Below are positions 32,936 to 47,600 of a stretch of 64,000 nt of DNA, piece by piece; position 1 is the first letter of the stretch, and the number at the start of each line of letters is the position of its first letter. The position numbers and the translations under genes are program-made. The DNA lies in the NCBI GenBank assembly GCA_029266835.1, contig JAQSWD010000001.1, forward strand, positions 1-64,000, read 5' to 3'. Under the pieces are notes generated by a model. The model had not been told where the DNA came from. It worked only from the letters and a program-made list of their open reading frames with translations, and ran no database searches. This stretch comes from Steroidobacteraceae bacterium. Its GTDB lineage: Bacteria; Pseudomonadota; Gammaproteobacteria; Steroidobacterales; Steroidobacteraceae.

Positions 32936-33415
32936 CTACTTTCGCTGGCGCGAGTCACCCGTGACCCGAGCCGGCACGCCCACCGCGATGGCGTAGGGCG
33001 GAATGTCCTTCGTGACCACCGCGCCCGCGGCGATCAGCGCGAATTCACCGATCGTGATCCCGGCGACGATCGTGGCGTTGGAGCCGATCGACGCGCCACG
33101 TTTCACGACCGTCTTCACCACCTTCCAGTCGGCTTCCGTCTGCGGCGATCCATCCGGATTCGCGGCGCGCGGATACAGGTCATTGGTGAACATGACGCCA
33201 TGGCCGATGAACACTTCGTTCTCGATTTCCACGCCCTCACAGATGAATGTGTGCGAGGAAATCTTGCAGCGTTCACCGATCGTCGCGTTCTTCTGGATCT
33301 CCACGAACGCACCGACCTTCGAATCCTTTCCGATGGTGCAGCCGTAGAGGTTCACGAGCTGAGGGTGGAAGATCTTCACGTTCTCACCCAGTTGCACCGA
33401 ATCAGCGACAGGCAT
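32936..33415 (-). CDS. hexapeptide N-acetyltransferase (WbpD/WlbB-like)
   Basis: A 159-residue LbetaH protein made almost entirely of hexad repeats: NVKIFHPQLVNLYGCTIGKDSKVGAFVEIQKNATIGERCKISSHTFICEGVEIENEVFIGHGVMFTND, then VVKRGASIGSNATIVAGITIGEFALIAAGAVV. The His of IGHGVMF and the Asn in FTND match the active site of WbpD/WlbB 3-N-acetyltransferases as I recall them. It is slightly shorter than usual (about 190). It is the first gene of the minus-strand glycan operon, so the operon promoter must lie in 33416-33700. Confidence 0.8.
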   Translation of the reverse strand: MPVADSVQLGENVKIFHPQLVNLYGCTIGKDSKVGAFVEIQKNATIGERCKISSHTFICEGVEIENEVFIGHGVMFTNDLYPRAANPDGSPQTEADWKVVKTVVKRGASIGSNATIVAGITIGEFALIAAGAVVTKDIPPYAIAVGVPARVTGDSRQRK

Positions 33416-33470
33416 TTGAACCTCTTGGGTTATTCATATCCAGACGGGGAGGGCGCGCGAAGTCTAGGGA

Positions 33471-33486
33471 TGTGATTGGGGTCGCA
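33471..33486. promoter_or_regulatory. CRP-type binding site, one mismatch
   Basis: TGTGATTGGGGTCGCA matches TGTGA-N6-TCACA at nine of ten fixed positions. It is 56 bases upstream of the first gene of the minus-strand glycan operon, a place where a CRP-family activator could act. It resembles the perfect site at 24364, which also controls exported or surface functions. Confidence 0.35.
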
Positions 33487-33747
33487 CCTTGTCGCGCTTG
33501 GCAGTTTGTTTGTGTCGAAAAACTTGCCAGCTCAGGATCTTGTTGCGCCTCGTATCGCCGCGACGATTGAACAGAACCAACCCTGTTCGAGTGGGTTTCA
33601 TCGTCGAAGATTTTTACAGGCTGACCCGGTGACCCCGGCACGCCGTGCTTCGGCATCCATTCCATGCGTGCAGGCTAACGCCAAGGTTGCGATTCGCCTC
33701 ACAGTTTCGGGGTACCCCCCATCAACCTTGTGACCTTATTCGCAGTT

Positions 33748-33763
33748 TGGCTCGTAAATTGCT
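33748..33763 (+). promoter_or_regulatory. sigma54 (-24/-12) promoter of the giant gene
   Basis: TGGCTCGTAAATTGCT fits the sigma54 consensus TGGCACG-N4-TTGCW with one mismatch (T for A at the fifth base) and the exact GG-N10-GC spacing. Transcription would start near 33774, 10 bases before ATG 33784 and 64 bases before ATG 33838. It therefore rules out the longest possible start (33730). It implies control by RpoN and an enhancer-binding activator. Confidence 0.7.
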
Positions 33764-33837
33764 TCCGAGGGGGTAGGGCACGCATGCGTGCTCGATCGCT
33801 GCCTGCTCAATCCGTCGAAACAGACAAGTCGAACAAC

Positions 33838-36800
33838 ATGACATTCAAGAACTTCGCTCGCTCCCTCCTGATCCTTGTGGCCGGTTTCGTGGCGCCCCTG
33901 GGCACCGCGAACGCCAATCCGAATCAAGGGCCGGGCGGGCCGATCCTGGTGGTCACCAATGGCAACCAGAACTTCGGCAAGTTCTACGCCGAAATCCTGC
34001 GCACGGAAGGCTTCAACTCCTTCGCGGTCGCCGAGATCGGGTCGGTCACTTCGACGGTGCTGAACAATTACGACGTGGTGATCCTCGCGAAAATCCCCGT
34101 CACCGGTTCCCAGGCTTCGATGTTCAACACCTGGGTGAACGCGGGCGGCAACCTCATCGCGATGGACCCCGGCGCGGAGCTGGCGTCGCTCGTGGGTGTC
34201 ACGCAGAACGGCACGACGATTTCGAATGGTTATCTCCTGGTGAATGGCGGCACGCGCTTCGGCGCGGGCATCGCCGCCACCACGCTGCAGTTCCATGGCA
34301 CGGCCCAGGCCAGCGCGCTCAATGGCGCGACCTCGATCGCTGCCCTGTATTCGACTGCGACCACGCCCACCGCGAGCCCCGCCGTCACGTTGCGCAATGT
34401 GGGCGCCAACGGCGGTCAGGTCGCGGCATTCATGTACGACCTGGCGACCTCCGTCGTCTACACGCGCCAGGGCAACCCGGCCTGGGCCGGTACCGAGCGT
34501 GACGGCATCGCGCCGCGCCGTTCGGACGACATGTTCTATGGCCCTTCGGCCACTGACCCGCAGCCCGACTGGATCGACAAGAGCAAGATCACCATCCCGC
34601 AGGCCGACGAGCAGCAGCGTTTCCTCGCCAACCTCATCACGGAGATGAACGCGGATCGCAAGCCGCTGCCGCGTTTCTGGTACCTGCCGAACCAGCATCG
34701 CGCCGCGATCGTGATGTCAGGCGACGACCATGGTTACCTGTTCACCAGCCACGGTGGTGGCACCGCGCAACGATTCGACCAGTTCAATGCGCTGAGCCCC
34801 GCGGGCTGCTCGGTGGCGAACTGGGAGTGCGTCCGTGGTACGTCCTATGTGTTCACCAACGGCGCGCTTACCAATTCCCAGGCCGCGGCTTATCAGGCGC
34901 AGGGCCATGAAGTGGGCCTGCACGTGAACACGCTGCAGGGCGGCCAGTGCCAGGATTTCACGCAGAGCTCGCTCGCCCAGAGCTACACCGAGCAGATGGC
35001 GGATTTCTTCGCCAAGTTCACCTCGGTGTCGCCCCTGAGCACCGAGCGTCACCATTGCATCGTTTGGAGCGACTGGGCTTCCGGCGCGAAGGTGCAGGCG
35101 TCCAACGGCATCCGCCTGGATACGTCGTATTACTACTGGCCGGGCGAGTGGGTGCAGAACACTCCCGGACACATGACCGGCTCGGCCATGCCCATGCGTT
35201 TCGCGGATCTCGACGGCAGCCTGATCGACGTCTACCAGGTCGTCTCGCAGATGACCGACGAGTCGCAGCAGCAGTATCCGTTCACGCCCAACACGTTGCT
35301 CGATCGCGCCATCGGCCCGGCCGAACAGTACGGCGTGTACACGGTCAACGCGCACACCGACCAGTTCTACATGGACGAATCGAGCTTGACGGTGGAGTCC
35401 GCGCAGGCGCGCGGCGTGCCGGTGGTCTCGGCCCGCCAGATGCTCACCTGGCTGGACGGCCGCAACAATTCTTCGTTCGGTTCGCTGGCTTTCGCCTCCA
35501 ACAACCTGACCTTCACGGTCACGCAGGCGGCCGGTGCCACAGGCCTGCACGGCATGTTGCCGTGGCGCTCGGGCAGCCGCTTCCTCGGCGATCTGACGCG
35601 CAATGGCGCGAGCCTTCCTTACGAAGTCGTGACGGTGAAGGGCATCGAATACGCCTTGTTTCCCGCGGCCAGCGGCAACTACGTCGCCACGTATCAGGCG
35701 GACACGGTCGCCCCCACGGTCGCCAGCCGCACTCCGGCCGCAGGTGCCACCAATGTTCCGCAGGCCTCGGTGATCCGCGCCGGCTTCAGCGAGTCGATGG
35801 ACGCAGCGACGATCACGAGTTCCACCTTCGAGGTGCGCGATTCCACCAACACGCTCGTTGCGGGCAGCCTGAGCTACAACGCCAGCACGCTCGCGGCCAC
35901 CTTCCTGCCTGCCGGTCCCTTGGCGAGCGGCACCACGTACACCGTGACGGTGCGCGGCGGCGCCAGTGATCCTCGCGTCAAGGACGTCGCCGGCAATGCG
36001 CTGGCGGCAACCGCCAGCTGGTCGTTCACCACGGCCGTTGCGCCCAATTGCCCCTGCAGCATTTTCAAGGCAACGGATATTCCGGCCACTGCTTCGGCCC
36101 CCGACACGGGCGCCGTGGAGCTGGGCGTGAAGTTCCGCGCCGACATCAACGGTTACATCAAGGGCATCCGCTTCTACAAGGGCCCTGACAACATCGGCAC
36201 GCACGTCGGTACGCTGTGGACCGGCACCGGCACTCCGCTGGCGCAGGTCACCTTCTTCAACGAGACGGCCACCGGTTGGCAGGAGGCGTTGTTCGCCACG
36301 CCCGTGCCCGTCACGGCCGGCTCCAACTACGTGGTTTCGTATCACGCGCCGAATGGTGGCTACTCCATCACGCAGAACCAGTTCACGACGGCTGGTGTGG
36401 ACAACGGCCCGCTGCATGCCCTGAGCTTCGATGAGTCCGGCGGCAACGGTGTCTTCGTCTACGCCCCGAGCGGCACGTTCCCCACTGGTAGTTGGCAGAA
36501 CACCAACTACTGGGTGGACGTGGTGTTCGACCTCAACGCCACGGGCCCTCCTGACAACACCTCGCCGGTCGTCAGCATCACGACTCCGGTCGCGACGCCG
36601 ACTTTCGCCACGGACACTGCGCTGCTGACCGTCGGCGGCACCTCGGCCGACAATGTCGGTGTCACCCAGGTCAACTGGAGCAACGATCGCGGCGGTGCGG
36701 GTACCGCGTCTGGAACCGCTTCGTGGACCGTCGCGAACATGCTGCTGCAGTCGGGCGTGAACGTGATCACCGTGACCGCGCGCGACGCGGCCAACAACAC

Positions 36801-39800
36801 GGCGACCGACACGCTCACCGTGACCTACACCCCCGTGGTGGACACGACGGCGCCCGCCGTGACGGCGCGTACACCCGCGTCGGGCAGCACCGGCGTGGTG
36901 CTCGCTACCACGGCGACCGTGACCTTCAGCGAGGCCATGGACGTCTCGACGATCAACTCAAACACCATCCAGCTGCGCAACGCCGGCAACACGCTCATCA
37001 CTGGTACGGTGACCTATGACGTGGGCACCCGCGTGGCCACGCTGACGCCGTCCGCCCCGCTGGCGCTGAACACCGTTTACACGGTGACGGTGCGCGGTGG
37101 CGCCAGTGATCCTCGCGTCAAGGACCTGGCCGGCAATGCGCTGGCCAACAACGACAGCTGGTCGTTCACCACCACGGCCGTGAACGTTCAGACGTACACG
37201 CTGTGGCCGAATACCGCCACGCCGGTCAATGCGTCGGACAATGGCACCAGCCCCGTCGAGCTCGGCCTCAAGTTCCGCTCCGACGTGGCCGGCCGTGTGA
37301 CCGGTGTGCGCTTCTTCAAAGGCCCGACCAACACCGGCACCCATATCGGCCGCTTGTGGACGGCCGCGGGCGGCTCGCTCGGCGAAGTGACGTTCATCAA
37401 TGAAACTGCCTCCGGCTGGCAGCAGGCGTTCTTCGGATCGCCCATCGACATCCAGCCGAACACCACCTACGTGGTGTCGTATTTCGCGCCGAACGGCGGC
37501 TACGCCTACGATGCGAATTACTTCACGACCAATGGCGTCGACAACGGCGTACTGCATGCGCCCAACAACGCGGCCGCGAGTGGCAACGGCGTGTACCTCT
37601 ACGCGCCCACCGGCGGCTTCCCGAACAACACGTTCGGATCCGCCAACTACTGGGTCGACGTGATCTTCGAGAATGTGTCGACCCCTGACACCACGGGCCC
37701 GAACATCACGCTGCGGCAGCCCGCTGGCGGCGCGGTCAACGTGGCCATCAACGGCGCGGTGAACGTGACCTTCAACGAGGCGCTGGATGCGGCCACGGTG
37801 AACAGCTCGACTCTCGAGCTGCGCACCGCCGGCAACACCCTGGTGCCCGCGACCGTCTCGTACGCGAACAATGTGGCCTCGCTGATCCCCACCAACCCGC
37901 TGGCGAATTCCAGCGTGTACACGGTGAACGTGCGCGGTGGCGCCACCGATCCGCGCATCAAGGACATCGCGGGCAACGCACTGGCGGCGAACGACAGCTG
38001 GTCGTTCACGACGGCGGCCGCTGGCGGCCCCTGCAACGCCAACACCATCACCGCCGAGAATTGCCTCACGGGCCATCCCTCGAGCGAGTGGGACGTGGTC
38101 GGCGCCGGCGACCCGAGCATCCAGGGCTTCGCCACGCAGATCTCGGTCAACCGCGGCAGCACGGTCCAGTTCAAGGTCAACACCAACTCGACCAACTACC
38201 GCTTCGACATCTATCGCATGGGCTACTACGGTGGTCTCGGCGCGCGTCGCATCACCTCGGTGAACCCGACGGCCACGCTGCCGCAGAACCAGCCGAGCTG
38301 TCTCACGCAGCCTTCCACCGGCCTCATCGACTGCGGCAACTGGGCGGTCTCCGGGCAGTGGGCGGTGCCTGCCAATGCGGTATCCGGCATCTACTTCGCC
38401 AAGGTGATCCGCCTCGACACGGGTGGCGCGAGCCACATCGTGTTCATCGTGCGCAATGACTCGGCGACGTCGGACATCGTCTTCCAGACCTCCGACACGA
38501 CCTGGCAGGCGTACAACAATTACGGCGGCAACAGCCTTTACATGGGTTCGCCCGGCACCAATCCGGCGCGCGCGTACAAGGTGAGCTACAACCGTCCGTT
38601 CAACACGCGTGCCGTGGACAACGGCCAGGACTGGGTCTTCAACTCCGAATACCCCATGGTCCGCTGGCTCGAAGCGAACGGCTATGACGTCACGTACATC
38701 ACGGGCGTGGACACCGACCGCGCGGCCAATCTGCTGACCTCGCGCCGCGCGTTCCTGTCCGTGGGCCATGACGAGTACTGGTCCGGCCAGCAGCGCGCCA
38801 ACGTCGAAGCCGCGCGTAATGCCGGCGTCAACCTGGCGTTCTTCAGCGGTAACGAGATCTTCTGGAAGATCCGTTGGGAGAACAGCATCGACGGCTCGGG
38901 CACCCCGTACCGCACCTTGGTCAACTACAAGGAAACGCACGCGAACGCGAAGATCGATCCCTCCTCGGAGTGGACCGGTACCTGGCGCGATCCGCGCTTC
39001 AGCCCGCCGGCTGATGGCGGCCGCCCCGAGAATGCGCTCACCGGCACGGCCTTCACCGTGAACTCCGGCACGGCGGCCATCGTGGTGCCCGCGGCGGAAG
39101 GCAAGATGCGTCTGTGGCGCAACACCTCCATCGCGTCACTTGCGGATGACCAGTCGGTCACGCTGCCCGCGGGCACGCTGGGCTACGAATGGGATTCGGA
39201 CCTCGACAACGGTTTCCGTCCGCCCGGCCTGGTCCGCCTGTCGAACACCACGGTGAATGGTGTCGACAAGCTCCAGGACCACGGTTCCTCGTATGCCCTC
39301 GACACCGCGAACCATGCGCTGACGATGTACAAGCACGCGAGTGGCGCACGTGTCTTCGGCGCCGGCACCATCCAGTGGTCCTGGGGTCTCGACGCGACGC
39401 ATGACCGTCCGGGTACTCCGAGCGACATCCGCATGCAGCAGGCGACGGTGAACCTGTTCGCCGACATGAACCTGCAGCCGGCGACGCTGCAGCCCGGACT
39501 GTTCAGCGCCAGTGCGTCTACGGACAACACCGCGCCGACGGTGGTCATCACGTCACCCGCCGCGGGTGCCGGCATTCCGCAGAACGCGGTGCAGATCACG
39601 GGTACCGCCAGCGACGTGGGCGGCGTGGTCGGTGGCGTCGAAGTCTCGGTTGACGGTGGCACCACCTGGCGCGCGGCGACGGGCCGTACCAGCTGGTCGT
39701 ATACCTGGGTGCCGACCAGCACCGGTGAAATAACGGTGCGCGTGCGCGCGGTCGACGACAGCGGCAACCTGCAGAGCTCGCCGGCGACCCGCACGTTCAA

Positions 39801-41727
39801 CGTCGGCAGCGCGGCCTGTCCGTGCTCGCTGTGGCCCCTCGAGACGCCGGCCAGCAGCGTCGATGCGGATCCGAACGCCGTGGAACTCGGCGTGCGCTTC
39901 CGCTCGAGCAGCGCGGGCAGCATCACCGCCCTGCGCTTCTTCAAGCATCCGCAGAATACGGGCGTGCACGTCGGCAGCCTGTGGACCAGCGGGGGCTCGC
40001 TGATCGCGCAGGTCACGTTCACGGGCGAGACCGCCTCGGGCTGGCAGACACAAGCCCTGGCATCGCCGGTGAACATCCAGGCGAACACCGACTACGTGGT
40101 GTCTTATCACACGAACTCGGGCTTCTACACGGGTGACGACGGGTACTTCGCCAGCAGTGGCGTGGTCAGCGGCCCGCTCTCCGCTCCGCAAGACGGCGTG
40201 GGCGGCGCCAACGGCCTGTACAAGTACGGTTCGTCCAGCGTGTTCCCCGACGAGACCTACAACAGCGAGAACTACTGGGTAGACGTTGTATTCACCAACA
40301 CCGCGGGGCCGGCGGATACGACGGCTCCCGTCGTGACCATCACGGGTCCGACCAGCAACACCACCACCACGGTGACCTCGACACCGCTGACCATCAGCGG
40401 CACCGCGACCGACGCCGTGGGCGTGACGCAGGTGAGCTGGGCCAACAACCGCGGTGGCAGCGGCAATGCCAGTGGCACGACCAGCTGGTCCGTGAGCGGC
40501 ATCGTGCTGCAGTCCGGTCAGAACGTGCTCACGGTGACGGCGCGCGACGCGGCCGGCAACACCAGTACGGACACGCTGACGGTGACGTACAACGTGACCG
40601 ATACCACCGCGCCGGTGGTGACCATCAGTTCACCTACCAGCAACTCGACCACCACCGTGACGAGCACGCCGCTGAGCATCGGCGGCACGGCCTCCGATGC
40701 CGTGGGCGTGACCCAGGTGACCTGGGCCAACAACCGCGGCGGCAGCGGCACGGCCAGCGGTACGACCAACTGGTCGGTGAGCGGCATCGCGCTGCAGTCG
40801 GGTACCAACGTGATCACGGTGACGGCGCGCGATGCGGCCAACAACACCAGCACCGACACGATCACGGTGACCTATTCGCCGGATACCACGCAGCCCACGG
40901 TGACCATTACCGGGCCAACGTCCAATTCCACGCTGACGGTCAGCACGAGCTCGGTGACACTGAGTGGCACGGCATCTGACAACGTCGGTGTCACCCAGGT
41001 GAGCTGGTCGAGCAGCCGTGGCGTGAGCGGCAATGCCTCCGGCACGACCAACTGGTCGGCGAGCAACGTCACGCTGCTGTCGGGACAGAACGTGTTGACC
41101 GTGACGGCAAGTGACGCGGCGGGAAACACCCGCACGGACACGCTGACCATCACGTACAACCCGGATACCACTCAGCCCAATGTGACCATCACGTCGCCCA
41201 CGTCCAACTCCACGCACACGACCACTGCATCCAGCCTGGCGCTGGGTGGCACGGCGTCGGACAACGTGGCGGTGACGCAGGTGACCTGGTCGAACAATCG
41301 CGGCGGCAGCGGTACCGCTTCGGGCACGACCAGCTGGTCGGTGGCCGGTATCACGCTGCAGAGCGGCTCAAACATATTGACCGTGACCGCGCGCGATGCG
41401 GCTGGCAACACACGTACCGATACGCTGACGGTGACCTACAACCCGGATACCACGCAGCCCAGCATCACCATCACGTCACCCACCAGCAATTCGACTCTCA
41501 CGACCTCGTCGTCGAGCATCACGCTGCGCGGCAGCGCCTCTGACAACGTAGGCGTGACGCAGGTGACCTGGTCGAGCAACCGTGGCGGCAGCGGAACGGC
41601 CACCGGCACCACGAGCTGGAACACCAGCAGCATTTCGCTGGTGCGTGGTACGACGGCGTTCACCGTGACGGCGCGCGACGCGGCGGGCAACACCCGCACC
41701 GACACGCTGACGGTCACGCGGCCCTAA
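33838..41727 (+). CDS. giant secreted mosaic protein: deacetylase-like head, DUF4082, Ig-like and N,N-dimethylformamidase-like modules
   Basis: About 2629 residues. Start 33838 gives a clean signal peptide (MTFKNFARSLLILVAGFVAP, cleaved near TANA); ATG 33784 is an alternative. Approximate order: 30-270 ThuA/GATase-like Rossmann region (ILVVTNGNQNFGKFYAEIL); 278-610 NodB-like region with MSGDDHGYL and HEVGLHVN; 622-735, 1002-1115 and 1284-1396 Big_5/SbsA-type Ig domains; 738-898, 1120-1278 and 1994-2153 DUF4082 domains; 1398-1885 N,N-dimethylformamidase beta-subunit-like domain (FDIYRMGYYGGLGARR, SVGHDEYWS); 905-1000 and 1895-1985 Ig-like domains; 2160-2629 five tandem Ig repeats. There is no PEP-CTERM or LPxTG tail, so the secretion route is unclear. 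It is probably a surface or matrix protein acting on the locus polysaccharide; no activity is established. Confidence 0.8.
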   Translation: MTFKNFARSLLILVAGFVAPLGTANANPNQGPGGPILVVTNGNQNFGKFYAEILRTEGFNSFAVAEIGSVTSTVLNNYDVVILAKIPVTGSQASMFNTWVNAGGNLIAMDPGAELASLVGVTQNGTTISNGYLLVNGGTRFGAGIAATTLQFHGTAQASALNGATSIAALYSTATTPTASPAVTLRNVGANGGQVAAFMYDLATSVVYTRQGNPAWAGTERDGIAPRRSDDMFYGPSATDPQPDWIDKSKITIPQADEQQRFLANLITEMNADRKPLPRFWYLPNQHRAAIVMSGDDHGYLFTSHGGGTAQRFDQFNALSPAGCSVANWECVRGTSYVFTNGALTNSQAAAYQAQGHEVGLHVNTLQGGQCQDFTQSSLAQSYTEQMADFFAKFTSVSPLSTERHHCIVWSDWASGAKVQASNGIRLDTSYYYWPGEWVQNTPGHMTGSAMPMRFADLDGSLIDVYQVVSQMTDESQQQYPFTPNTLLDRAIGPAEQYGVYTVNAHTDQFYMDESSLTVESAQARGVPVVSARQMLTWLDGRNNSSFGSLAFASNNLTFTVTQAAGATGLHGMLPWRSGSRFLGDLTRNGASLPYEVVTVKGIEYALFPAASGNYVATYQADTVAPTVASRTPAAGATNVPQASVIRAGFSESMDAATITSSTFEVRDSTNTLVAGSLSYNASTLAATFLPAGPLASGTTYTVTVRGGASDPRVKDVAGNALAATASWSFTTAVAPNCPCSIFKATDIPATASAPDTGAVELGVKFRADINGYIKGIRFYKGPDNIGTHVGTLWTGTGTPLAQVTFFNETATGWQEALFATPVPVTAGSNYVVSYHAPNGGYSITQNQFTTAGVDNGPLHALSFDESGGNGVFVYAPSGTFPTGSWQNTNYWVDVVFDLNATGPPDNTSPVVSITTPVATPTFATDTALLTVGGTSADNVGVTQVNWSNDRGGAGTASGTASWTVANMLLQSGVNVITVTARDAANNTATDTLTVTYTPVVDTTAPAVTARTPASGSTGVVLATTATVTFSEAMDVSTINSNTIQLRNAGNTLITGTVTYDVGTRVATLTPSAPLALNTVYTVTVRGGASDPRVKDLAGNALANNDSWSFTTTAVNVQTYTLWPNTATPVNASDNGTSPVELGLKFRSDVAGRVTGVRFFKGPTNTGTHIGRLWTAAGGSLGEVTFINETASGWQQAFFGSPIDIQPNTTYVVSYFAPNGGYAYDANYFTTNGVDNGVLHAPNNAAASGNGVYLYAPTGGFPNNTFGSANYWVDVIFENVSTPDTTGPNITLRQPAGGAVNVAINGAVNVTFNEALDAATVNSSTLELRTAGNTLVPATVSYANNVASLIPTNPLANSSVYTVNVRGGATDPRIKDIAGNALAANDSWSFTTAAAGGPCNANTITAENCLTGHPSSEWDVVGAGDPSIQGFATQISVNRGSTVQFKVNTNSTNYRFDIYRMGYYGGLGARRITSVNPTATLPQNQPSCLTQPSTGLIDCGNWAVSGQWAVPANAVSGIYFAKVIRLDTGGASHIVFIVRNDSATSDIVFQTSDTTWQAYNNYGGNSLYMGSPGTNPARAYKVSYNRPFNTRAVDNGQDWVFNSEYPMVRWLEANGYDVTYITGVDTDRAANLLTSRRAFLSVGHDEYWSGQQRANVEAARNAGVNLAFFSGNEIFWKIRWENSIDGSGTPYRTLVNYKETHANAKIDPSSEWTGTWRDPRFSPPADGGRPENALTGTAFTVNSGTAAIVVPAAEGKMRLWRNTSIASLADDQSVTLPAGTLGYEWDSDLDNGFRPPGLVRLSNTTVNGVDKLQDHGSSYALDTANHALTMYKHASGARVFGAGTIQWSWGLDATHDRPGTPSDIRMQQATVNLFADMNLQPATLQPGLFSASASTDNTAPTVVITSPAAGAGIPQNAVQITGTASDVGGVVGGVEVSVDGGTTWRAATGRTSWSYTWVPTSTGEITVRVRAVDDSGNLQSSPATRTFNVGSAACPCSLWPLETPASSVDADPNAVELGVRFRSSSAGSITALRFFKHPQNTGVHVGSLWTSGGSLIAQVTFTGETASGWQTQALASPVNIQANTDYVVSYHTNSGFYTGDDGYFASSGVVSGPLSAPQDGVGGANGLYKYGSSSVFPDETYNSENYWVDVVFTNTAGPADTTAPVVTITGPTSNTTTTVTSTPLTISGTATDAVGVTQVSWANNRGGSGNASGTTSWSVSGIVLQSGQNVLTVTARDAAGNTSTDTLTVTYNVTDTTAPVVTISSPTSNSTTTVTSTPLSIGGTASDAVGVTQVTWANNRGGSGTASGTTNWSVSGIALQSGTNVITVTARDAANNTSTDTITVTYSPDTTQPTVTITGPTSNSTLTVSTSSVTLSGTASDNVGVTQVSWSSSRGVSGNASGTTNWSASNVTLLSGQNVLTVTASDAAGNTRTDTLTITYNPDTTQPNVTITSPTSNSTHTTTASSLALGGTASDNVAVTQVTWSNNRGGSGTASGTTSWSVAGITLQSGSNILTVTARDAAGNTRTDTLTVTYNPDTTQPSITITSPTSNSTLTTSSSSITLRGSASDNVGVTQVTWSSNRGGSGTATGTTSWNTSSISLVRGTTAFTVTARDAAGNTRTDTLTVTRP
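40315..41725 (+). repeat. five tandem Ig-like coding repeats (about 94 residues each)
   Basis: Units start at 40315, 40600, 40882, 41164 and 41446, each beginning DTTAP or DTTQP and containing SPTSNST, GTASDNVGVTQV, NNRGGSGTASGTT, LQSGxNVLTVTARDAAGNT and DTLTVTY. Unit lengths are 285, 282, 282, 282 and about 279 bases. The repeats are similar at DNA level, so copy number may vary between strains and they are a risk for misassembly. A sixth, more divergent copy lies at about 36550-36840. Confidence 0.85.
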
Positions 41728-44182: not shown

Positions 44183-44330
44183 TCCCGCAATTCGGGCGAC
44201 GCAGCATACTCAACAAAATCTGGCCGCGGCGGGAGCCAGGTCCGGTGGCTGCATCCTGTCGTGAGCTCAGTGTCGGGGGGCTTTACAAGTCTTGGACCAG
44301 ATAAGCAGGCATGTGGTGTAACCTTCTGAT

Positions 44331-45356
44331 ATGCCAAAGATAATCAAAGTTGGTACGAACGATGCTCAGGAGGTATGTCCCCCCAATGCTGAAAGACCCC
44401 ACGATATGGAATCGAGAATCCCGCTCCCGGCCTTACGCAACCCAATGAGCCGGCCCGGCGATGCTTCGCCAATGAAGGCGACCGCTGTTCACGCGGACCA
44501 GAAGTCCGTCGTTTCCAACGCATTCACCATCGACGTCGAGGACTACTACCACGTCTCGGCGCTGGCCTCGGCCATCCCCCGGGACACCTGGGGCGATCGC
44601 GACTCTCGCGTCTCGGCGAGCACCGAAAGAATTCTTGCCATGCTCGAAGAGCGGCGCATCAAGGGCACGTTTTTCGTGCTGGGCTGGGTGGCGAACCATG
44701 TTCCGCAACTGGTCAAGCGCATCGCGTCGCTGGGCCACGAAATTGCCTGCCATGGGTATTCCCACGAACTCGTGTATCGCCAGACGCCTTCGGTGTTCGC
44801 GGAGGAAACGCTGCGTTCCAAGTCATTGCTGGAAGATCTTTCCGGCCAGTCGGTGACGGGTTACAGGGCCGCCAGTTTTTCGATCACGCCGCGCTCGCGC
44901 TGGGCGCTGGACACGCTCATCGAGCTCGGATTCGAGTACGATTCATCGATCTTCCCGGTGCGCCATGATCGCTATGGCATGCCTGACGCCGCGCGCGAGC
45001 CCGGCTACGTTCTGGCTCCCTCCGGCAGCCGCATCGTCGAATTCCCGATGTCGACAGCCTCGTTCGGGCCGGTCCGGGTCCCGGTCTCCGGAGGCGGGTA
45101 TTTCCGTCTGCTGCCTTACTGGTTCACTCGCCACGGGCTGCGCCAGATCAATCGTGAAGGCCAGCCGTTCACGTTCTATCTACACCCCTGGGAGATCGAT
45201 GCCGATCAGCCGCGCGTGGATGCCGGCCTCGTCTCGAGATTCCGCCACTACACGAACCTGTCGAAATGCGAGGGTCGGCTGCGTCGGTTGCTGGACGAAT
45301 TCCAGTTCACGACCATGCGTAACGTGTTGCGGGCGCAAGGATTATTGTCAATTTGA
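44331..45356 (+). CDS. XrtA-system polysaccharide deacetylase
   Basis: Up to 341 residues; the conserved core starts near 44517 (NAFTIDVEDYYHVSA, the first metal-binding Asp motif), so the true start may be the ATG at 44406, 44445 or 44472; none has a good ribosome site. Other motifs: GTFFVLGWVANHVPQLV, EIACHGYSHELVY (H-x3-H), GYRAASFSITP and FTFYLHPWEID. This is the deacetylase subfamily tied to exosortase A loci (TIGR03006-like, from memory). It should deacetylate the EPS or its precursor. Its 3' end is followed by the sigma54 promoter of a PEP-CTERM gene. Confidence 0.85.
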   Translation: MPKIIKVGTNDAQEVCPPNAERPHDMESRIPLPALRNPMSRPGDASPMKATAVHADQKSVVSNAFTIDVEDYYHVSALASAIPRDTWGDRDSRVSASTERILAMLEERRIKGTFFVLGWVANHVPQLVKRIASLGHEIACHGYSHELVYRQTPSVFAEETLRSKSLLEDLSGQSVTGYRAASFSITPRSRWALDTLIELGFEYDSSIFPVRHDRYGMPDAAREPGYVLAPSGSRIVEFPMSTASFGPVRVPVSGGGYFRLLPYWFTRHGLRQINREGQPFTFYLHPWEIDADQPRVDAGLVSRFRHYTNLSKCEGRLRRLLDEFQFTTMRNVLRAQGLLSI

Positions 45357-45448
45357 ACGCCGCGGACATGTCGAACTACTTGACAACGGCATTTCATTTC
45401 CAAGACACGGTGCAGCCAAGTGTTTGAATCGAAAGGCAGCCTTCCCAG

Positions 45449-45464
45449 TGGCACGTGGAGTGCA
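45449..45464 (+). promoter_or_regulatory. sigma54 (-24/-12) promoter of a PEP-CTERM gene
   Basis: TGGCACGTGGAGTGCA fits TGGCACG-N4-TTGCW with one mismatch (G for T) and exact GG-N10-GC spacing. Transcription would start near 45475, so translation must begin at ATG 45495 or 45507, not at the in-frame ATG 45468 inside the promoter. Sigma54/PrsR control of PEP-CTERM genes is known from floc-forming bacteria. Confidence 0.75.
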
Positions 45465-45494: not shown

Positions 45495-46169
45495 ATGGAT
45501 AAATCAATGCGACAGCTCAAAGTCAACGCCATTGCCGCCGTCACGGCCGTTCTGGGACTCATCCCCGCCGCGCATGCCGGCTTCGTCTCCACCAATACGG
45601 CAGGGCCTGGCGCGTCGACGATCAACATCGTCGGCAACAATGAATTCAAGGGTGTGCTCGTCGGCCTGGGCGTCAACCAATACACGCTTGGCACTTCGCT
45701 GGGCGTCGATAGCGCCGGTTCGGTCACCTATTGGTACTACGGCAAGGAAGCGGGCTACCAGAACATCTTCCTGACCGGCAACACCGCCTTCGCGACTGGC
45801 TTCACGCCGACCACGCAGAACTACTTCAACAACCCGATCAAGATCGGTGCGTTCGACGTGGGCAGCGGGGTTCTCGACTTCGCGTTTTGCGCCTTCAGCG
45901 GCCCCATCACACTGCAGGGCTGCGTGACCAACGAGGCCAATGATCTGCTGGGTTGGAACTCCAACCAGTCCATCGCGTACAGCGTTGCGGGCAACACCGC
46001 CTGGCTGTTCTGGGACGATTCGGGCGCTGGCCCGGACGACAATCATGACGACATGCTGATCAAGGCGGTGTTCACGCCGAAGGCCGTGCCGGAACCGGCC
46101 AGCCTGGGATTGTTTGGTCTTGGTCTGTTGGGCGCCTGGGTCGTGGCCCGCCGCCGCAAGACTGCCTGA
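45495..46169 (+). CDS. PEP-CTERM sorting-domain protein
   Basis: A 224-residue exported protein. The ATG at 45495 (or 45507) is chosen because a sigma54 promoter overlaps the upstream in-frame start. The signal peptide is QLKVNAIAAVTAVLGLIPAAHA. The mature region is rich in Gly, Thr and Asn with no recognised domain and has a Cys pair (FCAFSGPITLQGC). The C-terminal sorting signal is VPEPASLGLFGLGLLGAWV followed by ARRRK. It should be processed by the exosortase of the neighbouring EPS locus and travel with the matrix. A terminator follows 33 bases after the stop. Confidence 0.85.
   Translation: MDKSMRQLKVNAIAAVTAVLGLIPAAHAGFVSTNTAGPGASTINIVGNNEFKGVLVGLGVNQYTLGTSLGVDSAGSVTYWYYGKEAGYQNIFLTGNTAFATGFTPTTQNYFNNPIKIGAFDVGSGVLDFAFCAFSGPITLQGCVTNEANDLLGWNSNQSIAYSVAGNTAWLFWDDSGAGPDDNHDDMLIKAVFTPKAVPEPASLGLFGLGLLGAWVVARRRKTA

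Positions 46170-46229: not shown

Positions 46230-46231
<2 letters not shown>
46202..46231 (+). terminator. Rho-independent terminator
   Basis: AAGGCCTCGC and GCGAGGCCTT form a perfect 10-base stem with a 3-base loop (AAT) at 46202-46224, followed by TTCTTTT. It closes the PEP-CTERM transcript and overlaps the end of the converging glrR-like gene. Confidence 0.9.

Positions 46232-47600
<1,369 letters not shown>

Follow-up and report, generated by a model that had tools for sequence, protein, structure and literature searches.

Control of exosortase-associated genes by RpoN has been described mainly for PEP-CTERM proteins. In the sections of Haft 2006 (PMC1569441) drawn on here, a 17-nt motif (motif 1) found before PEP-CTERM genes ends in TTTACA, is sometimes repeated and precedes a sigma54 motif by a mean of 62.8 nt (range 32-92 nt), while the sigma54 motif itself lies a mean of 71 nt (SD 38.5) before the start codon. 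Motif 1 was phylogenetically matched to PrsR, and a few of its sites precede genes for other proteins. For pepA of Aquincola, the part of the report consulted (PMC9850573) gives a mapped transcription start with -24/-12 motifs and dependence on RpoN1. A second point of comparison is provided by the sites of QseF, given as TGTCN10GACA in the portion of PMC8745638 drawn on here.

The promoter considered here lies in a 64,000-nt stretch of DNA from a bacterium of the Steroidobacteraceae, the whole of which is referred to as the window, and precedes a gene for a giant secreted protein. The locus resembles the PrsK/PrsR-RpoN PEP-CTERM genes, as far as the cited parts of Haft 2006 (PMC1569441) and of the Aquincola pepA study (PMC9850573) describe them, in having a 17-nt box and a sigma54 element approximately 70 nt before the start codon, in serving a single gene after a large intergenic region, and in belonging to a genome with PrsK, PrsR, PrsT and an exosortase. 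Unlike that system, the target is giant and lacks a PEP-CTERM signal, and its two boxes lie 129 and 218 nt, rather than 32-92 nt, before the sigma54 element. The element is nevertheless likely to be the -24/-12 promoter of the giant gene, activated by PrsR and RpoN through two upstream boxes of a kind shared with neighbouring genes.

The sigma54 element upstream of the giant gene

The element TGGCTCGTAAATTGCT occupies positions 33748-33763 of the + strand. A sequence-only reading had described it as a near-consensus sigma54 promoter with GG-N10-GC spacing, placed 21 and 75 bases before two plausible start codons, and each of these descriptions proved accurate: the element departs once from TGGCACGN4TTGCW (A5 to T), its GG falls at 33749-33750 and its GC at 33761-33762, and ATG 33784 and ATG 33838 follow it by 21 and 75 nt, respectively. 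In an alignment with the orthologue in G002, a genome of the same genus, ATG 33838 matches an ATG and ATG 33784 does not, and the former is therefore the better start. The sigma54 element accordingly ends 75 nt upstream of the gene and the protein has 2,629 residues; the transcription start predicted from the -12 spacing would lie at 33774 (+).

By sequence alone the element is hardly above chance. With up to two mismatches the consensus was found 13 times in the window against 14.8 expected, and with up to one mismatch 45 times in the genome against 35 for a reversed-pattern control; such match counts are near chance and were therefore set aside as proof of a sigma54 element. In its setting, a chance origin is unlikely, because a GG-bearing + strand sigma54 site scoring at least 15.8 was present in 0.23% of 20,000 resampled 422-bp intergenic regions, the score here being 16.1, and because the element is conserved in the orthologue. 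The sequence-only reading had suggested looking for a conserved GG-N10-GC element upstream of orthologues; in the alignment with G002, which has the one near-full-length orthologue found, the element is kept as TGGCGCGGGTTTTGCT, with 11 of the 12 consensus positions retained and all four spacer bases changed. The sigma54 element is confirmed as real.

Elsewhere in the same genome, contig C24 carries exact sigma54 consensus sites at 1875 (-) and 2072 (+), about 180 bp apart on opposite strands, and also has two enhancer-binding-protein genes.

PrsR-type boxes and the candidate activator

Two 17-mers upstream of the giant gene first became apparent as conserved stretches in the alignment of the window with G002, the single orthologue used for footprinting this promoter. 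The proximal PrsR-type box, CGTCGAAGATTTTTACA (33602-33618, +), has the best score in the window, ends in TTTACA as published for motif 1, and is separated from the sigma54 site by 129 nt in the window and in G002 alike. The distal box, TGTCGAAAAACTTGCCA (33513-33529, +), ranks fourth and lies 218 nt before the sigma54 site, or 196 nt in G002. The promoter is called a variant because its nearest clear box is beyond the published spacer range; the giant gene, moreover, is not the usual PEP-CTERM target (Haft 2006, PMC1569441, sections cited).

In a ranking and a simulation that are both partly circular, since sites in the window served to draft the initial box pattern, the four best of approximately 128,000 window positions scored 22.9, 20.2, 20.2 and 18.8 bits (next, 11.8) with a matrix derived from 91 boxes found in relatives that do not belong to the genus, and one box occurred in 0.175% of 20,000 resampled 422-bp intergenic regions and two boxes in none. 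These four positions are the two giant-gene boxes, the box of an XrtA deacetylase gene and that of a PEP-CTERM gene, and they alone among the window boxes are followed by a sigma54-like site (spacer 25-259 nt, score at least 12.5). The simple box TGTCGN5CTTNMCA has eight exact matches in the genome, of which the window accounts for three; allowing one mismatch raises the genome count to 136 against 99 for the control, and allowing two gives 28 in the window against 25.8 expected. For four of the five exact matches outside the window (contigs C190, C197, C121 and C107, read by eye) no pair at the usual spacing was seen, the match on C107 being followed, about 425 nt further on, by a sigma54 site with one mismatch.

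Judged by its profile matches, the window belongs to an exopolysaccharide region of the XrtA/PEP-CTERM type. A glycosyltransferase (TIGR03087) and the XrtA deacetylase (TIGR03006) score over their cut-offs, an amidotransferase (TIGR03108) and a ligase (TIGR03097) below theirs, and there are two PEP-CTERM proteins. The deacetylase-gene box, TGTCGGGGGGCTTTACA (44271-44287, +), ranks second in the window and lies 63 nt before a sigma54-like element, TGGTACGAACGATGCT (44351-44366, +), which has two mismatches and reads TGGTACGAACAGTGCT in G002; the G002 box has one mismatch to the pattern and was missed by the pair scan. The gene for the XrtA system polysaccharide deacetylase itself (44406-45356, +; 384.3 bits, cut-off 276.2) would start at an in-frame ATG downstream of the promoter. 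The third-ranked box, TGTCGAACTACTTGACA (45369-45385, +), likewise lies 63 nt before a sigma54 element, TGGCACGTGGAGTGCA (45449-45464, +), recognised by pattern match and conservation, and the gene that follows encodes a PEP-CTERM protein by profile match (45495-46169, +); both box and element are present in all four genomes of the genus. Upstream of two other PEP-CTERM genes of the genome (24184-25236 in the window, and on contig C68) no box and sigma54 pair was found.

The genome encodes RpoN (Sigma54_AID match), and contig C2 carries the core locus of the exosortase system, with EpsB_2, PrsK, PrsR, an exosortase, PrsT and an export operon. PrsR on C2 reaches 709.9 bits with TIGR02915, for which the cut-off is 502.6, and PrsK, PrsT, the export protein and the chain-length determinant likewise exceed their cut-offs. 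The exosortase scores 134.1 with the general model TIGR02602 (cut-off 105.55) and is below the cut-off of the XrtA model (189.9 against 208). On the same contig, a good box is present before the XrtA exopolysaccharide export operon (C2:5143-5235, -), with a TGG-N9-TGC that is a poor sigma54 match, under the 12.5 limit of the pair scan.

The sequence-only reading had proposed that the giant gene depends on RpoN and on an enhancer-binding activator, and this appears well supported: RpoN is encoded, the element is conserved, and boxes lie upstream, one of them at a conserved distance. The probable activator is PrsR, encoded on contig C2, rather than a GlrR-like regulator. A composite pattern (box, 45-75 nt, TGGN9TGC) gave 98 matches against 13 for the control in a search of 98 genomes, this one included, and one of the matches lies on its own contig C69. 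Composites of the TTTACA type were present in 25 of the 44 genomes with PrsR and in 13 of the 54 without (p=0.0016, kinship ignored), as compared with 17 of the 38 genomes with a GlrR-like gene and 21 of the 60 without (p=0.40, kinship ignored). Nine genomes with these composites have PrsR and no GlrR-like regulator at threshold, and one has the reverse. Among the 38 genomes with TTTACA-type composites, 13, some of them incomplete, have no PrsR at threshold, and 12 of these 13 have no GlrR-like gene either; conversely, 19 of the 44 PrsR genomes have no such composite. Of 30 composite loci inspected out of the 98, 13 are followed by a reading frame whose tail looks PEP-CTERM-like under a simple text rule.

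The alternative that survives best, although unlikely, is a sigma54-dependent promoter activated by the GlrR/QseF-like enhancer-binding response regulator encoded at 46230-47600 (-), adjoining the PEP-CTERM gene (NF011695, 615.2 bits, cut-off 763; TIGR02915, 363, cut-off 502.6). This regulator was taken up first because it is adjacent: its gene is the nearest for an enhancer-binding protein, 4.5 kb past the end of the giant gene, with a histidine kinase gene nearby. In the manner of GlrR/QseF sigma54 promoters (glmY), palindromic TGTC...GACA boxes lie upstream of the sigma54 element, and the box at 45369 reads TGTC-N9-GACA; the boxes at 33513, 44271 and 45369 are, however, 17 bp long with nine bases, not ten, between TGTC and the last four. 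As a group, the PrsR-type boxes fit PEP-CTERM motif 1 with its 17 nt and TTTACA 3' end (Haft 2006, PMC1569441, in the sections cited). Together with the association of the composites with PrsR, and not with the GlrR-like gene, the N9 spacing disfavours this candidate. The regulator is 97.8% identical in G002, above 12 other matched genes (60.8-94.8%), and it reads GSFTGA, where GAFTGA is the usual sequence in such regulators. Less probable still is that the sigma54-like sequence arose by chance, that the giant gene uses another promoter and that the conserved DNA serves the divergent hexapeptide-transferase/DegT genes, for although the sigma54 pattern is hardly enriched genome-wide (45 against 35) and the divergent gene starts at 33415, less than 100 nt from the distal box, the element, the proximal box and the 129-nt spacing are all conserved in G002, a sigma70 consensus scan of 33380-33860 found no promoter, and no GC is present in the top-scoring sigma54-like match that faces the divergent gene.

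Spacing and an IHF-like site in PrsR-type promoters

In many relatives the sequence YAANNNNYTGATW, which is the reverse of the IHF consensus WATCARNNNNTTR, is present between box and sigma54 element. It is found exactly in 13 of 64 TTTACA-type promoters, where resampled spacers gave a mean of 0.19 and a maximum of 3 in 200 rounds, and with at most one mismatch in 32 of the 64 (resampled mean 3.7, maximum 10); in the opposite orientation one exact site and 10 within one mismatch were found (mean 3.7, maximum 10). Of the 32 sites, 22 start 31-33 nt and seven start 42-43 nt after the box. In the window, the deacetylase gene has an exact match in reverse orientation (44319-44331, +) and the PEP-CTERM gene a match with one mismatch (45417-45429, +); in each case the sigma54 element begins 32 nt after the start of the site. 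At the giant gene, a conserved block (33682-33707, +), whose offset from the sigma54 site is identical in the window and G002, may be an IHF-like site, CAAGGTTGCGATT, with two mismatches and 66 nt before the sigma54 element in both species, or a weak third box; the latter (33687-33703, 44-nt spacer) is not within the 14 best matrix positions of the window. No IHF-like element was noted in the motif section (section 7) of Haft 2006 (PMC1569441), and a literature search gave, among the matches listed, no paper pairing PrsR with integration host factor.

The 64 spacers between box and sigma54 element measure 49-54 nt (nine), 61-67 nt (39), 73-75 nt (14) or fall elsewhere (two), the pattern having allowed 45-75 nt. 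A second search, whose range of 66-96 nt overlapped that of the first, yielded 23 matches and none in the control; counted by hand, these comprise one spacer at 67 nt, 18 at 73-76 nt, four at 84-87 nt and no others. The spacers form an 11-bp ladder near 52, 63, 74 and 85 nt, which suggests helical phasing. The 129-nt spacing of the giant gene fits this ladder as well (63 + 6 x 11). Boxes at 107-137 nt are rare and weakly enriched, with 12 matches against four for the control in 396 genomes, counting this genome and G002, and their 12 long spacers have no clear phasing. Whether, in this genus, PrsR/RpoN also drives a giant exopolysaccharide-modifying enzyme from tandem distant boxes, and whether PrsR promoters across the order are tripartite (box, IHF-like bend, sigma54) and quantised at about 11 bp (52, 63, 74 and 85 nt), with the 129 nt of the giant gene on that series, is a proposal to which even chances are given.

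The giant protein and its possible role in exopolysaccharide production

The reading frame of the giant gene (33838-41727, +) has its start set by conservation, and the gene on its 3' side is on the opposite strand. The 2,629-residue product is approximately 12 times the length of the window's PEP-CTERM protein. It has an N-terminal signal peptide (read by eye), a deacetylase-like three-domain module, three DUF4082, three Big_5, one DMFA2_C and six Big_7 domains, and profile searches found no PEP-CTERM signal on it. For the DMFA2_C part, a similarity to N-acetyl-(R)-beta-phenylalanine acylase was found (E 1.7e-9); DUF4082 had no mention in the literature searched, among the matches listed. The protein was matched in four of 98 genomes, this one included, and nearly whole in G002 alone, of the same genus, where the orthologue aligns over residues 15-2645 at 74% identity and the flanking genes are syntenic.

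The earlier description of the protein as matrix-like needs refining: its N-terminal module, encoded at 33838-35739, resembles exopolysaccharide deacetylases. An AlphaFold2 model of the first 634 residues from Met 33838, made with 35 aligned sequences, had a mean pLDDT of 89.1 and a pTM of 0.90. Foldseek placed PelA first (E 4e-8), then NDST1 (1e-6) and the polysaccharide deacetylase 3rxz (1.1e-4), alongside many glycoside hydrolases matching the first domain. With VIA-align, Agd3 (6nwz; Z 17.5, 472 residues, rmsd 9.8) ranked eighth, behind glycosidases and single-domain matches, and PelA and NDST1 were missing from the best 50 rows. Most structure-search rows pair the first domain with beta-galactosidases, ThuA-like and similar proteins, and the deacetylase reading rests on 3rxz, 3qbu, Agd3, PelA and NDST1. 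A PDB sequence search with the module gave no significant match, and a profile search gave none.

D296, H298, H362, H406 and H506 are invariant in all 35 aligned sequences, and D297 is present in 34. D296/D297 would correspond to the Asp-Asp of CE18 motif CM1. For CM2, the HXXXH motif of CE18 (PMC7229062, in the part cited), H362 is invariant but the window protein has Leu at +4; HXXXH is missing and the module is therefore called deacetylase-like, not CE18. Like Agd3 (CE18) and PelA, it has an invariant Asp pair and may combine alpha/beta, NodB-like and beta-rich domains, whereas unlike them it has neither HXXXH nor a significant PDB sequence match and fronts a much longer protein. The giant protein probably deacetylates or binds exopolysaccharide.

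The N-terminal module occurs at 35-60% identity in 66 loci (L043-L108) from many phyla, among them Bacteroidota, Actinomycetota, Chloroflexota and Acidobacteriota. It is mostly inside larger frames: in 53 of 65 loci (L097 left out) the frame extends more than 500 nt further upstream, and the promoter there is therefore not adjacent to the module. No box and sigma54 pairs were found in the stretches of DNA covered for the 66 loci, against two in the reversed control, a result that speaks neither for nor against the proposed promoter. As no pair was seen in these stretches around the module in other organisms, PrsR/RpoN control of the giant gene may have been acquired specifically in this lineage. 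In 11 of the 66 loci, the DNA around the module holds homologues of the 25 other window genes compared.

In the proposed mechanism, RNA polymerase with RpoN would wait at the -24/-12 element of the giant gene. PrsR, the response regulator of the PrsK/PrsR pair encoded next to the C2 exosortase, would bind both 17-bp boxes, at 129 and 218 nt from the element on its upstream side. With the DNA looped, perhaps through a bend made by IHF at the conserved block 33682-33707, PrsR would open the promoter. The XrtA deacetylase and PEP-CTERM genes nearby would respond to the same switch, and so perhaps would the operon for exopolysaccharide export on C2. With this shared switch, the giant protein would be made together with the exopolysaccharide that it probably deacetylates or binds, and production of a polysaccharide deacetylase alongside the exopolysaccharide machinery would be coherent.

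The PrsR/RpoN switch of exosortase systems has so far been predicted from PEP-CTERM genes (PMC1569441, sections cited). What would be new here is a target other than a PEP-CTERM gene, one that may change the polysaccharide itself. The proposed architecture of a helically phased box, an IHF-like site and a sigma54 element could be used for finding regulons. The proposed control also suggests why the synthesis of a 2,629-residue protein might depend on a promoter that is strictly on or off.
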